Below, one piece after another: positions 15,250 through 23,337 of a stretch of 43,698 bases of DNA. The position numbers and the translations under genes are program-made. The notes below the pieces were generated by a model. That model did not search any database and had not been told where the DNA came from. It was given only the letters and a program-made list of their open reading frames with translations. Within the stretch, counting starts at the first letter, position 1. Each line of letters begins with the position of its first letter. The DNA is from Brasilonema sp. CT11 (GTDB lineage: Bacteria; Cyanobacteriota; Cyanobacteriia; Cyanobacteriales; Nostocaceae). The stretch covers positions 68,474-112,171 of the forward strand of contig NZ_JABXYX010000012.1 in the NCBI RefSeq assembly GCF_017982655.1, given 5' to 3'.

Positions 15250-15309
15250 AAATTATTTAATAGTGATAGGAGTCACTAAATTTTTGTAGTCAATATCACT
15301 TTTGTTACA
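15250..15309 (+). repeat. 60-bp direct repeat, copy 1 (left of cpc3)
   Basis: This copy starts AAATTATTTAATAGTGATAG and ends CACTTTTGTTACA. It matches copy 2 at 20115-20174 at 57 of 60 positions, in the same orientation, 4865 bases away. The pair encloses the whole phycocyanin operon. Weaker similarity continues about 15 bases past the end. Confidence 0.85.
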
Positions 15310-15512
15310 TGTGATTACTCATTGTAATTAGAGCTACAAAATTTTAGTAAATATAATCACTATTTTCTTAGTTATCAATGACTGTTTATTGTGAAAAATA
15401 TCAGACAGACACCTGGAATATACAATCAAAAAATAGATATAGCTAAAGCTTAATCAGTACTCTTATAAAATTTTTTTCTTGACAAAGTAACCTTTAGGCA
15501 AGGGTTACAGAC

Positions 15513-15552: not shown

Positions 15553-15953
15553 TCTTGAATTAGACTGGAATTACCAGACTGCATAGTTGATGATATGTCT
15601 TCCAACAAATCACGCAATCTTTTTTAATAAAAAGGCTCATGGTAATTATTGTATAAAAGAAATTACGAGGCAACAGGCAAAATAAAGTAGTGAAACTTCT
15701 GTTTGATTGAGTTTCATTACCTTATAGCAATTGTTAATCTTTCTCATATCCTGAATGACAATTAGTCTTTTGGAAAAGGGGATTACCGCTATAAGAAAGC
15801 GAAGGCTTGGGAATTTTCTTACCTTGGCTTTAAGTTTTTCCTGTGCGATTATCCGTCTTTTGTTTTGAAGAAGTGCAAAGCTTTATCTTTCACTTCCTGT
15901 TTTAAAATCACATCATTCATTCTCAACTCATCAAAATTTAGGAGATTTCAACT

Positions 15954-16475
15954 ATGGTGCAGGATGCTTTTTCTAAAGTTGTTGCCCAGGCTGACTCACG
16001 AGGAGAATACCTCAACGACTCTCAATTGGATGCTCTACTGGGTTTAGTTAGAGACGGTAACAAGCGCGTTGATGTCATCAACCGCATTACTAGCAATGCC
16101 TCTACCATTGTTGCCAATGCAGTTCGACAGTTGTTCGCTGAACAACCTCAGCTGATTGCGCCTGGTGGAAATGCTTACACAAGCCGTCGTGCTGCTGCTT
16201 GTATACGGGATTTGGAAATCATCCTACGCTATGTGACTTATGCGATTTTTGCAGGAGATGCCAGTGTGTTGGATGATCGTGCACTCAATGGTTTGCGGGA
16301 AACTTATCTGGCACTAGGCACCCCTGGGGCTTCTGTTGCTGTTGGCATTCAGAAGCTGAAGGATGCCTCGATCGCTATTGCCAATGATCCCAACGGTATT
16401 ACCCGTGGTGATTGCAGTGCGCTGATTGCGGAAGTTGCAACCTATTTTGATCGGGCGGCGGCGGCTGTTGCCTAA
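15954..16475 (+). CDS. cpcB3: Sulfur-sparing phycocyanin beta subunit
   Basis: A 173-residue phycobiliprotein beta chain that carries bilins in phycobilisome rods. Chromophore cysteines Cys83 (AACIRD) and Cys154 (GDCSAL) and the methylatable Asn73 are kept. Every other sulfur residue is gone. The cysteine that ordinary CpcB carries in DDRCLNGL is Ala110, and the usual Met residues in RRMAAC, RDMEII and QKMKD are Ala, Leu and Leu. The only Met is the initiator. This is the hallmark of the cpc3 operon expressed under sulfur limitation in Calothrix PCC 7601. It heads a B-A-H-I-D operon with an AGGAGA ribosome-binding site at 15940. A phycoerythrocyanin beta chain was considered, but the partner alpha chain is CpcA-type. 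Confidence 0.93.
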
Positions 16476-16533
16476 GTCATCACAACTACATCAAATCAAT
16501 CCTTTATAGAACAAACTTGGAGATATTAAGTCA

Positions 16534-17025
16534 ATGAGTAAGACGCCTTTAACGGAAGCGATTGTTTCTGCTGATTCCCAAGGTCGCTATTTGGGTAGCA
16601 CTGAAATCCAGGTTGCATTCGGTCGCTACCGCCAGGCAGCTGTCAGCTTAGAAGCGGCAAAGACGTTATCTAAAAAAGCGTCAAGTCTGGCTGAAGCCGC
16701 TGCCAACGCTGTGTATCAGAAGTATCCTTATACCACCCAGTTGGATGGACCTAACTACGCTTCTAGTTCTACTGGCAAGGCAAAATGTGTGCGCGATGTA
16801 GGCTACTACCTACGGATTATTACTTATGCCTTAGTTGTAGGTGGAACAGGTCCAATCGACGATTATTTGATTGCCGGCTTAGCTGAAATCAACCGCACCT
16901 TTGAGTTATCTCCAAGCTGGTACATCGAAGCCCTCAAACACATTAAGGCGAATCATGGTTTATCAGGTGACCCCGCTGTTGAAGCGAACTCCTACATTGA
17001 TTATGTGATCAATTCTTTGACCTAG
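16534..17025 (+). CDS. cpcA3: Sulfur-sparing phycocyanin alpha subunit
   Basis: A 163-residue alpha chain forming the (alpha-beta) monomer with CpcB3. It holds a single cysteine, Cys85 in KAKCVRD, which binds the phycocyanobilin, and no methionine except the first. Where standard CpcA reads LRMITYCLVAGGTGPMDD this one reads [18 protein letters not shown], replacing Met, Cys and Met with Ile, Ala and Ile. Length and the ending ([17 protein letters not shown]) are standard CpcA, arguing against PecA. It lies 58 bases after cpcB3 with ribosome-binding site GGAGATA, and is followed by a terminator-like structure that separates it from the linker genes. Confidence 0.93.
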
Positions 17026-17167
17026 CGGAAGTCTTTCAGTTTTGTGTGATGCAGCAAGAAAATAATTTGGGAATTGTGCATCTAAACTAATGTGATTACG
17101 AAATTATTTTCACCAAACTTCGTTACATAGTTCCACAAAACTGAACCTAAAGTTTGCAAATGCGTCG

Positions 17168-17298
17168 AGCCTTTGTGTAGTCAGCCTGAAAGGCTTCAAA
17201 CACTGGCATGATTATCTGTTCTCTCAATTCAAACTGACTGAGATACTTATGCTGTTGGAGTTTTCTAGCTTTTCAATGACTACGCAAAGGCTTTTTTT
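17168..17298 (+). terminator. Attenuator-like terminator between cpcA3 and the linker genes
   Basis: AGCCTTTGTGTAGTC at 17168-17182 is complementary, with one G-U pair, to GACTACGCAAAGGCT at 17278-17292, which runs into a seven-T tract (17292-17298). A smaller hairpin AGCCTGAAAGGCT sits just inside at 17183-17195. The 330-base gap has no gene. Partial termination here would give more phycocyanin subunits than linkers, as in other cpc operons. Confidence 0.65.
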
Positions 17299-17355
17299 AA
17301 AATGTCTTTTTAACCAAATTCGCAATTGTGTAATCGAGATTTAAGAGGTGGAATT

Positions 17356-18171
17356 ATGGCAGCGTTGGGAGAAGCAAGCCGATTAGGGATTCGTCCATTT
17401 GCAGATGCTGAAAAGGTTGAACTGCGCCCTGTAAGAACAGAAACTGATGTCCAGGCGGTTATTTGGGCGACCTATAGACAAGTTTTGGGCAATGAACATC
17501 TGATGCAAAGTGAGCGTCTTTTGAGTGCAGAATCACTGTTGCGTCAGGGACAAATTACACTACGGGATTTTGTGCGTGCGATCGCCCAATCAGAACTGTA
17601 TCGACAAAAGTTCTTCTATTCCAACTCTCAAGTTCGCTTAATTGAATTGAATTATAAGCATCTTTTGGGTCGTGCTCCTTACGACGAGTCAGAAATTGCC
17701 TACCACGTCGATCTCTACAATTCTCAAGGTTACGAAGCTGATATTAATTCTTACATTGATTCTGTCGAGTATCAACAAAGCTTTGGGGATTCCATTGTCC
17801 CTTACTATCGAGGCTTCCAAACTGTCGTAGGACAAAAAACAGTCGGGTTTCCGCATTTTTTCCAGTTGTATCGAGGCTATGCGAATAGCGATCGCGCTCA
17901 AAGCAAGCCCAAAGGACAATTAACTTGGAATTTAGCAAAAAACCTGGTATCCCCCATCTACCCTGCTTCTGCTGGCACCTTAACTGGCACTTCAACAGGT
18001 CGTCGTGGTGGTAACACTTATCGAATTCGCCTCACGCAGGCGGCTTCTCCTAACTCTACAGTTATCCGCCAGAGTATTAGTGAAGTGGTTGTCCCTTTTG
18101 AACAGTTGTCGGATCGATTGCAACAACTCAATCGCCAGGGACGCAAGATTATTAGCATCACTCTTTCATAA
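17356..18171 (+). CDS. cpcH3: Phycocyanin-associated rod linker, sulfur-sparing
   Basis: A 271-residue rod linker that joins phycocyanin hexamers. The N-terminal Pfam linker domain (about residues 20-165) shows [45 protein letters not shown] and [10 protein letters not shown] CpcD-like C-terminal domain (about 218-271) shows TYRIRLTQ and [21 protein letters not shown]. It contains no cysteine and only one methionine besides the first (in HLMQSE), a position usually Met in this family. ATG 17356 has ribosome-binding site GAGG at 17345-17348 and matches the family start; the frame extends to 17326 without merit. It follows the attenuator after cpcA3. Confidence 0.92.
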
Positions 18172-18173
18172 GA

Positions 18174-18212
18174 AGAACGCAGAACGCAGAACGCAGAACA
18201 CAGAATGCAGGA
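18174..18212. repeat. GCAGAAC short tandem repeat
   Basis: Iterated heptamers of the form CGCAGAACGCAGAACG lie just after the cpcH3 stop codon. They belong to the short tandemly repeated repetitive sequences common in filamentous cyanobacteria. A looser TTCTGAGTTCT repeat follows at about 18345-18375. Both fall in the 242-base gap before cpcI3. Confidence 0.75.
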
Positions 18213-18413
18213 AAAAAGATACCAGGCGTCAGGTAGGAGAAAGATTGTTGTTCATTAACTCTTCTTAAACCTGAAACCTGCAACCTAAAACTTAAAAAAG
18301 TTGTACAGAAGTTATACCGATATAAACCTACGTGTTTCTATTCATTCTGAGTTCTGACAACTAAGTTCTGAGTTCTTTATTCAATAAAAGTTTTTAATCA
18401 AGGAGACTTTTAG

Positions 18414-19280
18414 ATGGCTATTACAACAGCCGCCTCTCGACTCGGAACCTCTGCTTTTAGTAATGCTGCCCCCATCGAATTATGGTCTAATGCCAGCCAG
18501 ACAGATATTTCTGCTGTGATCGCGGCTGTTTATCGTCAAGTCTTAGGCAATGATTATTTATTAAAATCTGAACGCCTGACTGGCGCAGAATCTCTGCTGT
18601 TGAATCGCTCGATCAGCGTGCAAGAATTTGTCCGTCAGGTGGCAAAATCCCAACTGTATAAAGCTAAGTTTTTCTCCAGTAGCTTCCACAGCCGTTTCAC
18701 TGAGTTGAACTACAAACATTTTTTGGGTCGTGCCCCTTATGATGAATCTGAGATAGCCTATCACCTGGATTTGTACCAAACCAAAGGATACGACGCTGAC
18801 ATTGATTCCTATATTGACTCAAGCGAGTACCAAGCTAACTTTGGGGAAAATATAGTACCCTACTATCGGGGATTTAAGACTCAACCGGGACAGAAAACCG
18901 TGGGCTTTACCCGGATTTTTCAGCTGTATCGTGGGTATGCGACGAGCGATCGCTCCCAAATTCCAGGGAATTCCCCTCGTCTAGCTAGTGAACTGGCGAA
19001 AAATAGTGCATCAACCGTAGTTGCTCCTACCCCTAGCAATAATGGCTTTGCCTATCGTCCTCCTCTAAGAGGGGAAACTCCCAGCAGCACATTTGGAGGC
19101 TCACAAGCATTTGGCACAGGACGACTCTATCGAGTTGAAGTGGCAAATATTTCTAAACCAGGATATCCCAAGGTTCGCCGCGTCAACCAAGCAGTCGTTA
19201 TCCCCTACGAACAGCTATCAGATTACTTTCAAAGGGTTCAACGCCAAAATGGCAAGATTGCCAGTATTACGCCTCTTTAA
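18414..19280 (+). CDS. cpcI3: Second phycocyanin rod linker, sulfur-sparing
   Basis: A 288-residue paralogue of CpcH3 with the same architecture. The linker domain holds [45 protein letters not shown] and [10 protein letters not shown] variable Ser/Pro-rich hinge (about 195-235) precedes a CpcD-like end ([27 protein letters not shown]). It has no cysteine and no methionine except the initiator; at the position where CpcH3 keeps Met this one has Leu. AAGGAGA at 18400-18406 is an excellent ribosome-binding site. Two linkers of different sequence suggest rods of at least three phycocyanin hexamers built entirely from low-sulfur parts. Confidence 0.92.
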
Positions 19281-19354
19281 TTCAGACTTTATAAAATTTG
19301 TCAATCCCCCGATAAGGGGGAATTTAAATTTCCTTTAATTTCTGGGATAATATA

Positions 19355-19603
19355 ATGGTTTATCAAATTGTTAGCGGCAGAAGCAACAACTCCATTACAG
19401 CGAATCGGAGTTTCCGGTTTGAAGTGATAGGTCTCCATCAAAATGAGGTTACAGATAATAACAATTATGCCATTCGCTCCAGTGCCAGTGTGTTTATTAC
19501 GGTACCGTTTAGCCGATTAAATCAAGAACTCCAGCGGATTAATCGACTCGGTGCCAAAATCGTTAATATAGAACCGTTGACACCTGAAACTGATGAAGCT
19601 TAG
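19355..19603 (+). CDS. cpcD3: Small rod-capping linker, sulfur-sparing
   Basis: An 82-residue CpcD-domain protein that caps the core-distal end of phycobilisome rods. Family features are the FRFEVIGLHQNEVTDNNNY segment, SVFITVPFSRLNQELQRI and the end GAKIVNIEPL. Methionine occurs only at position 1 and cysteine not at all; in ordinary CpcD the SRMNEE segment has a Met, replaced here by Leu. It is the last gene of the operon. Its ribosome-binding site (GGGATAAT) is weak, so translation may be modest, fitting a cap needed once per rod. Confidence 0.92.
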   Translation: MVYQIVSGRSNNSITANRSFRFEVIGLHQNEVTDNNNYAIRSSASVFITVPFSRLNQELQRINRLGAKIVNIEPLTPETDEA

Positions 19604-20169
19604 GACAAATTCTCATTTTATTTGCAGATAAAATTAAAAATTAAAGGTGATTACATTGCTTGGGAATTGATCGACGACACAGTAGCTTTCGATAACGATG
19701 ACACGAAAGATAAGTTCTACCAATTCTCCATGATAGCTTGCGTGGCGTAGCCATAGATGCACTTTATATTCATGAAACAAACCGCCTTAGCACAGCGTGT
19801 CCGCAGGACATAGACGAGCCAGCGCCGGGGTGAGGCAGCGCTGCGGGAGGGTTTCCCTCCGCAGGCGACTGCCGAAAGGATCTCCCGACTTGAGGCGACT
19901 GGCGTCGCCAAGCACGCCAAGAGTGAAAGAGTAAGTATTAAGTGCAAGTTTACAGAGAATTGGTATCTACATATAGGAATTCGGTTTGATTTGGTGAGAC
20001 CAGTGCTGAGAGATCATCCGAGTGCTACGCACCGATTGACGGCACGACGACGATCGGCGAGCCAGCGACAGGCGCCTTCGCGCTTCGTCGGCAGATCATT
20101 CTGCTGACGGCAGAAAATTATTTAATAGTGATAGAAGGAACTAAATTTTTGTAGTCAATATCACTTTTG
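19604..20169. other. Intergenic repeats and a truncated reading-frame remnant
   Basis: Between cpcD3 and the TIR gene, about 19636-19750 reads as a protein-like fragment (KIKGDYIAWELIDD, then FDNDDTKDKFYQF) ending in repeat DNA (ACVA, stop); I do not recognise it. From 19785 to 20110 follow GC-rich mosaic repeats (for example GGCGACTGCCGAAAGG), and at about 19965-19990 an ATATAGGAATTCGGTTTGA element that recurs near 26645. Copy 2 of the 60-bp direct repeat closes the region. Confidence 0.6.
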
Positions 20170-20174
20170 TTACA
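20115..20174 (+). repeat. 60-bp direct repeat, copy 2 (right of cpc3)
   Basis: Partner of 15250-15309, with 57 of 60 identical bases, differing only in a central GAGTC/AAGGA block. Its last bases overlap the stop and final codon of the minus-strand TIR gene, so this copy may be partly coding-derived. Both copies point the same way and flank the whole phycocyanin operon. Confidence 0.85.
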
Positions 20175-22266
20175 CTTGATTAATCTTGGATGCTGCTTGT
20201 TTGATTTTACTACAGATGTCCACCCAAGCTCCATCTTGCTCTGCTTCACTCAACCTACTTAGAGGATTCTTGGGATCGTGCGCTGCTTGATACTTTTCAA
20301 TTGCTGTTTCTTTGTAATTGCTAAAACGCAACGGTATCCAAATAATCGTAAGTCCTTTGGCTTGAGCTGTATTTAGTAGTGGAGGTAACTCATCATCAGC
20401 AATGAAATCTGATGCTAAAAAGTCAGGACTAACCATCAACACAGCTACTTTTGCTGCTGCGATCGCTTCTTCGATTTCTTGTCGCCACTCAGCACCGGCT
20501 TGGATCTTGGTATCATCCCACACCGCGAGTTTTTGATTGCGAATCATGGGTTTTAGGTGTTTCTGGAGTATGGTAAGCGATTGTTGGTCTTCATGACTAT
20601 AGCTTATGAAGACTTGATTTCTGATTATGGGTTCTGGCATAAATGATTGCTGAGATTCATTTCTCTTCTGTTCTAATTCCCGTTGCAACTGTGCTCCCAA
20701 GCTTTGCTGCATAATATCATCAATCAACTTTCGGACATCTACCATTTCATAGCTTTCTGGGCACTCAATCTCGTATTTCTTATCCTCCAAGCGCTTACGT
20801 AACCTGTTCAAAGGGTAGGAATAAGGCATCTGACTTCCTTGACAGCTTGGGCAATTGCAAGGAACAAGGGTTTGATACTGCAAACGCTCGAAAGACTGAT
20901 GAATTTTTTCGAGTTCGTGGGTGACAACTGCTAGCAGTTCTTTCTTGCGGTTTCCGGCGACACGAATTTTAATTTCCTTTTGATTGTAGTTTTCAATAAC
21001 TTCGGCACGGGTTTGGTCTTTATTGAGAACAACGCCGTTTTTCCAGACGAGTTTTTGTTCATCAATCCAAGGGTATGTCTCAACGATGAAGCGGGTGAGG
21101 ATACCTTTGGGCATGAATTCGTATTTGTAGCGCAAAATCAGGTTGTTGGTTTCGTCGTCCCAAGTGTAGTCGGGTTTGTCAACCGAAAGCAGGTGAGGTG
21201 CAATATAGGTGTCAGGATCAGTGTCAGGAAGATTAGGAATTTTGTAGCAGAGTTTGAACCGCATCATCAAATGAAGCAGTTCATCTCGCATATCGGCATA
21301 TTGAACTCCATTCCAGATATTGACAAGATCATCCTGGGTAAAGCGCCCCTGATTTTGCCTAACGGTATCATTGTCCAACACTTTGTAGACAGCAGTAGTA
21401 CCCCATTCCGGTTTGAGAATGACATAGTGTTTGAGTGTAGAATCGTCTTGGAAGTGAAGGCAAACGCCGAGGTCATGCAGATAGCGGCTAAGCCGCAACA
21501 TATCTTCACGGTCAGTTAGTTTATTCTCTCGGCAAAGGGTGCGGTATTCTTCAAGGCTGATGTAGTTGCGGGAATTGTTTTCTAAGGCGAAACGGACTCT
21601 TACCCAGAGTTTTGGCAAAGGTGTGCCGACGTGGGGAAGCCTGCTGATGTAATTCTCAATCGCGTTTTTAATTTCTGATAAACCGCGATTGCTGTTTAAG
21701 TTGGTTGCTAGAATTTCTTTTAAGTTGGTAAATTCTCCCCGCAACTCGCGTTCATTGACTTCGCACTTTCGGTCTTGTTTTTCATTTTTGATAATCAAAA
21801 CTGGGCTATTATCGCTTAAGAGTTCAACAACCTTGAGCCACCAATAAAAATCTGTGTTTTCCTTACGAGTATCGGCAACTAATGCATAGAGAGAACGCTT
21901 TGTCAGGAAAAATTGGTGAGTTTGATGATAGATTTCCTGTCCGCCAAAGTCCCAAATGTTGACGCGAAAGGGTTGTCCATTGGGCTGTGTGAAGTTCCAC
22001 TGGATGACGTCAATGCCTTGAGTGGATTTCTCATCTGATTCGAGTTCGTAAGTTTCGTCTGCTATTTTCTTGGCTAAGGAAGTTTTCCCCGCCCCCCCTT
22101 CGCCAACAATCAAGAATTTCGCTTCATAAAAGGGTTCGGTTTCATTTGGATCTTGCACCCGGAAATAGAAATCGAGAATTTCATTCACATCGCCCGGATT
22201 TTCCTCCAATTCCTTTGGTCCCAAAATTTCAGGTGGAATCGGGACTGGATTTCTACGAAGATCCAA
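20170..22266 (-). CDS. Roc-COR GTPase with C-terminal TIR domain (Roco protein, 3' part)
   Basis: A 698-residue Ras-of-complex protein numbered from TTG 22266. The Roc GTPase has P-loop GEGGAGKTSLAKK (55-67), switch IWDFGGQEIYH and IKNEKQD in place of NKxD. The COR domain follows (LGVCLHFQDD, LKPEWGTTAVYKVLDN, PNLPDTDP). The C-terminal TIR domain (about 548-690) begins VFISYSHEDQ, with SPDFLASDFIADDELPPLL holding the glutamate expected of NAD-cleaving TIRs. The reading frame continues upstream without a stop through LRRs to 22560, where TAA and TGA separate it from the LRR gene. No ATG, GTG or TTG occurs between 22560 and 22266, so TTG 22266 is only the first possible start. Likely one LRR-Roc-COR-TIR gene broken by nonsense codons. 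Such proteins are NLR-like sensors. Confidence 0.85.
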   Translation of the reverse strand: MDLRRNPVPIPPEILGPKELEENPGDVNEILDFYFRVQDPNETEPFYEAKFLIVGEGGAGKTSLAKKIADETYELESDEKSTQGIDVIQWNFTQPNGQPFRVNIWDFGGQEIYHQTHQFFLTKRSLYALVADTRKENTDFYWWLKVVELLSDNSPVLIIKNEKQDRKCEVNERELRGEFTNLKEILATNLNSNRGLSEIKNAIENYISRLPHVGTPLPKLWVRVRFALENNSRNYISLEEYRTLCRENKLTDREDMLRLSRYLHDLGVCLHFQDDSTLKHYVILKPEWGTTAVYKVLDNDTVRQNQGRFTQDDLVNIWNGVQYADMRDELLHLMMRFKLCYKIPNLPDTDPDTYIAPHLLSVDKPDYTWDDETNNLILRYKYEFMPKGILTRFIVETYPWIDEQKLVWKNGVVLNKDQTRAEVIENYNQKEIKIRVAGNRKKELLAVVTHELEKIHQSFERLQYQTLVPCNCPSCQGSQMPYSYPLNRLRKRLEDKKYEIECPESYEMVDVRKLIDDIMQQSLGAQLQRELEQKRNESQQSFMPEPIIRNQVFISYSHEDQQSLTILQKHLKPMIRNQKLAVWDDTKIQAGAEWRQEIEEAIAAAKVAVLMVSPDFLASDFIADDELPPLLNTAQAKGLTIIWIPLRFSNYKETAIEKYQAAHDPKNPLSRLSEAEQDGAWVDICSKIKQAASKINQV

Positions 22267-22560
22267 TTTTTCAAGTTTTGTCAGTTGCCTGATTTGTGCA
22301 GGTAATGCGCTCAGTTGATTGAAGCACAGATCGAGCGTTTGCAGGTTGGTTAGTTGGACAATTTCCGGTGACAGTGCACTCAGTTGATTGTCGCTCAGGT
22401 CGAGCGATTGTAGGTTGGTGAGTTGGACAATTTCCGGTGGCAGTGCGCTCAGTTGATTGCTGCCGAGGTTGAGCGTTTGCAGGTTGGTGAGTTGGGCAAT
22501 TTCCGGTGGCAGTGCACTCAGTTGATTGTAGCCGAGGTCTAGCGGCTGCAGGTTGGAGAG
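22267..22560 (-). pseudogene. LRR-coding stretch joined in frame to Roc-COR-TIR, no start codon
   Basis: Reads LSNLQPLDLGYNQLSALPPE, then four further 23-residue leucine-rich units, leading directly into LRRNPVPIPPEILG of the Roc protein. It is in the same frame as both neighbours, separated from the 5' part by TGA-TAA at 22566-22561. Confidence 0.8.
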
Positions 22561-23000
22561 TTATCAAATTAGCTGGGGAGGTGCGTTCATATGGTTACCG
22601 TGGCGGTGGAACGCTAGCTGGTTGGAGAGTGTTCTAAATGCCGGTGGCAGTGCGCTCAGTTGATTGTCCCAGAGGTCGAGCGTTTGCAGGTTGGTGAGTT
22701 TTCCAATTTCCGGTGGCAGTGCGCTCAGTGGATTGTCAGCGAGGTAGAGCGATTGCAGGTTGGTGAGTTGGCCAATTTCCGGTGGCAGTGCGCTGAGTTG
22801 ATTGTCGCTCAGGTCGAGCGTTTGCAGGTTGGTGAGTTGTCCAATTTCCGGTGGCAGTGCACTCAGTTGATTCCAGGTGAGGTGGAGCGATTGCAGGTTG
22901 GTGAGTTGTCCAATTTCCGGTGGCAGTGCGCTGAGTTGATTGTCCCAGAGGTCGAGCGTTTGCAGGTTGGTGAGTTGTCCAATTTCCGGTGGCAAACTAC
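22280..23000 (-). repeat. 69-bp tandem repeats encoding LRRs
   Basis: Near-identical 69-base units (core AATTTCCGGTGGCAGTGC on the plus strand) recur about ten times. Such identity lets units be gained or lost by recombination, changing the sensor surface. The degenerate unit with the stops interrupts the array at about 22560-22630. Confidence 0.85.
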
Positions 23001-23265
23001 TTAAGCGATTATCAACAACCTGAAGTTCTTCAAGATGATGAAGCTGTCCAATTTCTGCAGGAAAATCACTCAGGTTATTCCCGATAGTATCAACAATATA
23101 GCCCTCGTCATCATACTCATATTTGCCGAGAATCAGTTTTTTGAGTTGAGTCAACTTGCCAATCTCAGGCGGTAAAACTGTCAACTTATTGCCGGAGAGG
23201 TCGAGTTCTGTCACCCCCTCACTCGCAGCCTTCTCAATTACCTGCAGCAATTCTTCCTGAGTCAT
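22564..23265 (-). CDS. Leucine-rich-repeat N-terminal part of the Roco gene
   Basis: About 233 residues from ATG 23265 (MTQEELLQVIEKAASEGVTELDLSGN), a start used by many cyanobacterial LRR-Roco proteins. It holds roughly eight LRRs of the bacterial 23-residue type with consensus LTNLQTLDLWDNQLSALPPEIGQ, the DNA units being almost identical 69-mers. The last unit is degenerate (FHRHGNHMNAPP) and ends at TGA 22566-22564, immediately followed by TAA, after which LRR coding resumes in the same frame. It could be expressed as a free LRR protein, but by architecture it is the sensor half of the downstream Roc-COR-TIR protein. Confidence 0.85.
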   Translation of the reverse strand: MTQEELLQVIEKAASEGVTELDLSGNKLTVLPPEIGKLTQLKKLILGKYEYDDEGYIVDTIGNNLSDFPAEIGQLHHLEELQVVDNRLSSLPPEIGQLTNLQTLDLWDNQLSALPPEIGQLTNLQSLHLTWNQLSALPPEIGQLTNLQTLDLSDNQLSALPPEIGQLTNLQSLYLADNPLSALPPEIGKLTNLQTLDLWDNQLSALPPAFRTLSNQLAFHRHGNHMNAPPQLI

Positions 23266-23337
23266 CAACAATCTACTGAGCTATTATTCAATATGTTTAA
23301 GGTAGCCCAAATTCTGAGATACACCTAAATAAAAATC

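Follow-up and report, generated by a model that had tools for sequence, protein, structure and literature searches.

The sulfur-depleted cpc3 phycocyanin antenna reported by Mazel and Marliere in 1989 from one strain, PCC 7601 (Calothrix/Tolypothrix, Fremyella diplosiphon), is a well-known example of proteins whose elemental composition has come under selection. A 2011 article on PCC 7601 by Gutu et al. reportedly names transcriptional and post-transcriptional regulation in its title. In low sulfate, the antenna proteins of PCC 7601 are depleted in sulfur amino acids, according to one account (PMC4424289), which cites both articles for this; the 1989 article is also cited in PMC12269360. A contrasting case is Synechocystis, in which early sulfur deprivation lowers the cpcA transcript and raises nblA2 (PMC2491639). 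Here, we describe a complete second phycocyanin rod operon of cpc3 type, an additional member of this known kind, in a 43,698-nucleotide stretch of Brasilonema sp. CT11 (the window), which sits on contig C93 (112 kb) of a searched host genome of 8.79 Mb in 411 contigs. The operon is probably a switch of rod synthesis for sulfate shortage that spares sulfur amino acids.

Genomes, contigs and loci are cited by our working numbers (G, C and L). Five genes lie in order on one strand, all with intact reading frames:

15954..16475, + strand: cpcB3, phycocyanin beta subunit; 173 amino acids; no non-initiator Met; Cys 83 and 154 (bilin sites); PF00502, 182 bits
16534..17025, + strand: cpcA3, phycocyanin alpha subunit; 163 amino acids; no non-initiator Met; Cys 85 (bilin site); PF00502, 163.5 bits
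17356..18171, + strand: cpcH3, rod linker; 271 amino acids; one non-initiator Met (position 50), no Cys; PF00427, 174 bits, and PF01383, 51 bits; start taken as the ATG at 17356 (the open reading frame list has a TTG 30 nt upstream instead)
18414..19280, + strand: cpcI3, rod linker; 288 amino acids; no non-initiator Met, no Cys; PF00427, 167 bits, and PF01383, 62 bits
19355..19603, + strand: cpcD3, small rod linker; 82 amino acids; no non-initiator Met, no Cys; PF01383, 76.5 bits

All five proteins score far above the Pfam cut-offs, and the set is that of a phycocyanin rod operon. Coordinates, order and counts were re-derived and bear out the first-pass annotation, which had described a complete operon of 977 residues with three Cys, all at chromophore sites, and one Met besides the five initiators. 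Composition is thus of cpc3 type (Met as initiator, Cys at bilin sites) in the five proteins, with CpcH3 Met50 as the sole exception. Compared by description with the PCC 7601 cpc3 operon as reported, the window operon shares the order cpcBAHID, Met nearly confined to initiators, Cys at bilin sites and the status of an extra operon, and differs in the one Met left in CpcH3. A short AGAACGC-type tandem repeat stands at 18176-18207, between cpcH3 and cpcI3, and the gap between cpcA3 and cpcH3 is also long (~330 nt).

A second, ordinary cpc operon, made up of the same proteins of the same Pfam families, was found on contig C115, so the window operon is an extra one beside a copy of normal sulfur content, as the first-pass annotation had expected, and not the only one of its genome. 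Non-initiator Met and Cys on C115 number 6 and 3 in CpcB, 2 and 2 in CpcA, 5 and 2 in CpcH, and 3 and 0 in CpcI, altogether 23 in four proteins vs 4 in the window. CpcB and CpcA are each 78% identical between the two operons. When the four proteins were aligned, 19 Met or Cys of the ordinary copy proved to be replaced in the window, four kept (three bilin Cys and one Met) and none gained (two-sided sign test on the 19 losses, p ~4e-6, an initiator Met aligned to Val2 being excluded from the loss count), a pattern not due to chance. Each of the kept bilin Cys (CpcB3 83 and 154, CpcA3 85) aligns to a Cys of the ordinary copy. CpcD stands outside this comparison because contig C115 ends there, and no ordinary CpcD was found on that contig. 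As calculated from the sequences, with initiator Met included, an (alpha-beta)6 disc would contain 30 sulfur atoms when built of cpc3 subunits vs 90 when built of ordinary ones.

Relatives were placed in a CpcB plus CpcA tree (106 distinct pairs, quick method, with 27 columns holding Met or Cys in at least two rows removed); the named set of loci used here (80 matches listed) came from a search with a sulfur-free sequence and is therefore biased. The window falls within a 24-row clade (clade I; Shimodaira-Hasegawa-like approximate likelihood ratio test [SH-aLRT], 95) that extends to Leptolyngbyaceae, Chroococcidiopsidaceae and Microcystis; none of its CpcB or CpcA has a non-initiator Met. The clade is made up of two halves, sub-clade A (11 rows; SH-aLRT, 96), to which the window belongs, and sub-clade B (13 rows; SH-aLRT, 89). 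Of the 13 loci listed for sub-clade A, which represent 10 genomes (three entered twice), 12 have H and I linkers that contain at most one Met; L070 has no CpcD match, L072 has no H linker beside cpc3, and at L093, a sub-clade A locus outside that list, only cpcBA was seen. Sub-clade B (Calothrix, Fischerella, Pantanalinema, Chroococcidiopsidaceae, Leptolyngbyaceae, Microcystis and others) likewise shows only cpcBA in the fetched flanks. The genus group of the window includes Brasilonema angustatum HA4187-MV1 and Scytonema tolypothrichoides VB-61278.

Sulfur-free phycocyanins also sit on other branches of the tree, in a Nostoc clade of 11 (L083-L086, L095, L115, L120, L124, L125, L151, L157), three Anabaena-type operons (L132, L146, L155) and Dendronalium (L121). 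Like the window operon, they have no non-initiator Met in CpcB (one in L085) or in CpcA, with 2-3 and 1 Cys, respectively. A single group of all 38 sulfur-free rows was rejected (approximately unbiased test, p-AU 5.9e-84; minimum of six state changes), in a test whose group is defined by the trait itself and which gives no direction of change; the composition has therefore changed repeatedly.

In a family sample drawn evenly (130 CpcB entries, 116 genomes), the count of non-initiator Met in CpcB was two-peaked, with none in 31 entries, one in 2, two in 3 and at least three in 94; one gene of G075 was counted twice and second ordinary-type copies in ~20 genomes lie outside the count, so that the sulfur-free share is inflated, which does not explain the gap between the peaks. 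CpcB with 0 or 1 non-initiator Met is carried by 33 of the 116 genomes, 17 of them in clade I. All 17 have another CpcB match (best per genome, 75-81% identity to CpcB3; 25 genomes re-searched), and the ordinary copies read from nine of them contain at least 5 Met. Among the 16 such genomes outside clade I, two (G036, G078) have an ordinary CpcB at 77% identity with 4 and 5 Met, one (G037) has a partial CpcB-like match at 70% identity, and five (G028, G029, G074, G100, G116) have their only other CpcB-like match at 62-65% identity, where the deepest tree branch also lies, a branch that looks phycoerythrocyanin-like; the other eight are considered below. In Nostoc sp. T09 (L087 / L132; G056), the main cpc cluster is itself purged, further linkers in it have at most one Met, and any other CpcB-like match in the genome stays at or below 46% identity.

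Near clade-I operons of other genomes, SsuD (641 bits, cut-off 510), SsuE, SsuA, a sulfate-binding protein and O-acetylhomoserine sulfhydrylase exceed NCBIfam cut-offs. TauD-like, arylsulfatase-like and rhodanese-like proteins in the same neighbourhoods score below the cut-offs of the named models, and another TauD-like protein near a clade-I operon exceeds that of Pfam. Some neighbour products are themselves without non-initiator Met or Cys (an OprB porin of 610 amino acids, a TauD-like protein of 287 and an SsuE of 187). With 14 queries run on the named set, a sulfur gene was present within a flank of ~7 kb at 11 of 14 clade-I loci vs 1 of 66 other cpc loci (Fisher p 4e-10), counts to which non-independent loci (three Microcystis) and flanks of varying length contribute. 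The queries were picked from the cpc3 neighbourhoods of G003, G095, G009, G115 and G022, and the loci tested belong to other genomes; the choice of families is therefore not independent of the hypothesis. The labels SfnB-like (no Pfam match), CysK, MetX, SsuC and LLM were given by eye, and without the SfnB-like, LLM, flavoprotein and SsuC queries the counts are still 11/14 and 1/66. The three clade-I loci with no sulfur neighbour in flanks of ~7 kb are L093 and the two from the genus group of the window, L088 and L089.

Kovacikia minuta carries, on its 1.2-Mb plasmid pA (L342; NZ_CP083583.1, 95702-120202), a cpcBA pair free of non-initiator Met with a CysK relative next to it. In three Microcystis records (L135, L139, L141), a sulfur-free cpcBA pair has a relative of cysteine synthase on one side and a rhodanese-like gene on the other. 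A 607-amino-acid protein at L216:15986-17806 has no non-initiator Met, one Cys and no Pfam match, and a Cys-less relative of it is found near cpc3 in Fischerella (L097:481-2313).

A 26-bp palindrome, TACGGTA-N12-TACCGTA (up to two mismatches), occurs upstream of 13 of 27 sulfate-binding-protein genes in ten cpc3 genomes (500 bases before the matched part of the gene, excluding a 28th match that was fragmentary). Among clade-I operons, 7 of 24 carry this palindrome in the 600 bp before cpcB, all of them in sub-clade B; none of the 69 ordinary or the 13 other sulfur-free cpcB genes has it (Fisher p 1.4e-5), and it arose in 9 of 2120 shuffles. G003 carries a sister of the window's operon, and of its 34 main-contig sites 17 fall in a 293-kb interval with cpc3 close to one end; 20,000 random draws gave at most 9. 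The interval was chosen after the site list had been seen. This ~300-kb stretch, dense in operator-like palindromes (G003 C1:730799-1023409; L216, L217, L385, L386) and read in part, holds sulfonate-type genes together with some Met- or Cys-free porins and enzymes, and is possibly a large sulfur island.

Five sites at one mismatch occur in the host genome. Three are at sulfur-type or regulator genes (a LysR then an Rrf2 gene; a TauD-like gene facing a flavoprotein-ferredoxin pair; an SsuE-like gene; TauD and SsuE labels by eye), and two (C131, C248) are at genes without an evident sulfur link. At G000:C158:85489-87259 (L387) of the host, a perfect palindrome precedes a LysR gene, which is followed on the same strand by an Rrf2 relative, and in G115 an Rrf2 gene lies ~330 nt downstream of a palindrome site, directly before a sulfate-binding gene. 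One member of the Rrf2 family is CymR, which senses how much cysteine is available (PMC5015018). Our guess at the regulator of the palindrome, as a candidate only, would be an Rrf2 (CymR-like) protein.

Around the window operon, the following elements were delimited:

15624..15657, + strand: upstream element TTAATAAA ... TATAAA, ~300 nt before cpcB3
15940..15944, + strand: AGGAG, likely ribosome binding site of cpcB3, present in 10 of 11 aligned sequences (AGGAA in L072)
15250..15320, + strand: left copy of a 71-nt direct repeat flanking the operon
20115..20185, + strand: right copy of the repeat, 92% identical, overlapping the 3' end of the open reading frame 20170-22266 (- strand)

The upstream element or close variants of it also precede ordinary-type cpcB genes (L102, L113, L166 and the ordinary copy in L093) and clade-II cpcB genes (L083, L095, L124, L125), and it was rejected as a cpc3-specific signal for that reason. 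Because variants precede some ordinary cpcB genes, the stretch is probably a general cpc promoter region. A structured leader RNA was dropped as well, since RNAalifold gave no conserved pair in the ~330-nt leader (11 sequences from 11 clade-I loci). The 71-nt repeat was found in just these two copies in the host genome; pairs also surround cpc3 in L070 and L088, and one copy only was seen in L089 and L042. The overlap of the right copy with the 3' end of the next open reading frame suggests an old insertion or segment duplication. Open reading frames at 20170-23271 (- strand) resemble, by eye, a GTPase (Roc type) and a leucine-rich-repeat protein.

Given the likeness to PCC 7601 and the sulfur-gene neighbourhoods of sister operons, a cell short of sulfate would switch its rod synthesis to the cpc3 set, by which light harvesting would go on while sulfur amino acids are spared. 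More tentatively, some sister lineages might throw this switch through the palindromic operator common to sulfate and sulfonate uptake genes; the candidate sensor would be an Rrf2 (CymR-like) protein.

Several results weigh against sulfur control here. No match to the sulfur-gene query set was found on the whole 112-kb contig; no palindrome stands upstream of cpcB in sub-clade A, the window included; and the operator (up to two mismatches) is present neither in the 600 bp upstream of cpcB3 nor on contig C93. The upstream region of cpcB3 resembles some ordinary cpc upstream regions. Outside clade I, eight of the 16 genomes with CpcB of 0 or 1 non-initiator Met (G006, G007, G033, G038, G056, G059, G090, G110) have no further CpcB-like match above 54% identity, and composition alone does not imply starvation control.

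At two mismatches, a reversed control pattern was equally or more frequent than the palindrome in all ten genomes (host, 21 palindromes vs 29 controls). Because genome-wide site counts do not exceed the reversed control, only position and clustering were used as evidence, and the number of sites per genome was dropped. At one mismatch, six genomes held 25 palindromes vs 14 controls, and at three mismatches the window holds two operator-like sites (chance mean, 0.7). Since contig C93 has neither sulfur-gene matches nor the palindrome, we infer sulfur control of the window operon from kinship; with the operator absent and a cpc-type upstream region kept, its sub-clade would have to be controlled by another route. 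Of the sulfur-starvation reading put forward in the first-pass annotation, the extra operon, the one-way purge, the order cpcBAHID and the relatives among sulfur-assimilation genes speak for it; its reliance on low sulfur content did not stand as a diagnostic, because the purge arose elsewhere too, including in the eight genomes above.

The same eight genomes, where a permanent pressure would be needed, lend something to the explanation that Met and Cys were removed as residues oxidised in high light or drying and not as a saving of sulfur. The window's cyanobacterial group is often aerial, and the non-bilin Cys of the window operon are gone as well. This we regard as unlikely, in view of the clade-I operons placed among sulfate and sulfonate assimilation genes, the porin, TauD-like and SsuE neighbours equally free of non-initiator Met and Cys, and the palindrome that seven clade-I operons have in common with sulfate-binding genes.

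Less probable still is a light-colour-regulated operon that is sulfur-poor by coincidence. The cpc2 operon of PCC 7601 is such a light-colour-regulated set, the host may acclimate to colour (a pair on C195 resembles phycoerythrin by eye, and three linkers lie on C102) and the upstream region of the window operon is cpc-like; a loss at 19 of 23 sites with no gain is not expected under light regulation, and sister operons sit among sulfur genes. Mutational or compositional drift that lowered Met and Cys with no selection, for which no support was found, is scarcely credible, given the wholly one-way losses with three bilin Cys retained, the two-peaked distribution of Met in CpcB and the repeated change that follows from rejection of a single sulfur-free clade.

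A literature search (titles and abstract openings, few subscription journals) revealed no report of cpc3 beyond PCC 7601, of its sulfur islands or of the palindrome. To judge from the sequences, the sulfur islands, the partly shared palindrome and the repeated purges appear to go beyond the literature found. On balance, we lean towards sulfur-free phycocyanin as an old and widespread module of a sulfur-starvation regulon. It would lie in sulfur islands (sulfonate/sulfate uptake, SsuD/SsuE, TauD-like, CysK, rhodanese) near Met- and Cys-free porins, in one sub-clade often under the 26-bp palindrome, plausibly read by an Rrf2/CymR-like repressor, and once on a plasmid; other lineages would independently have purged the sole phycocyanin that they have, and the window's sub-clade would be the branch that lacks the operator, retains a promoter of cpc type and, in Brasilonema, has moved out of the island.

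The cpc3 state is now seen in a clade spanning several cyanobacterial families and in several other lineages, including genomes in which no other phycocyanin was found, and the linkage of the clade to sulfur assimilation is independent of amino-acid composition. This opens the testable question of two switched sets in some lineages vs a single purged set in others, and an operator with candidate regulators is offered for cyanobacterial sulfur control.

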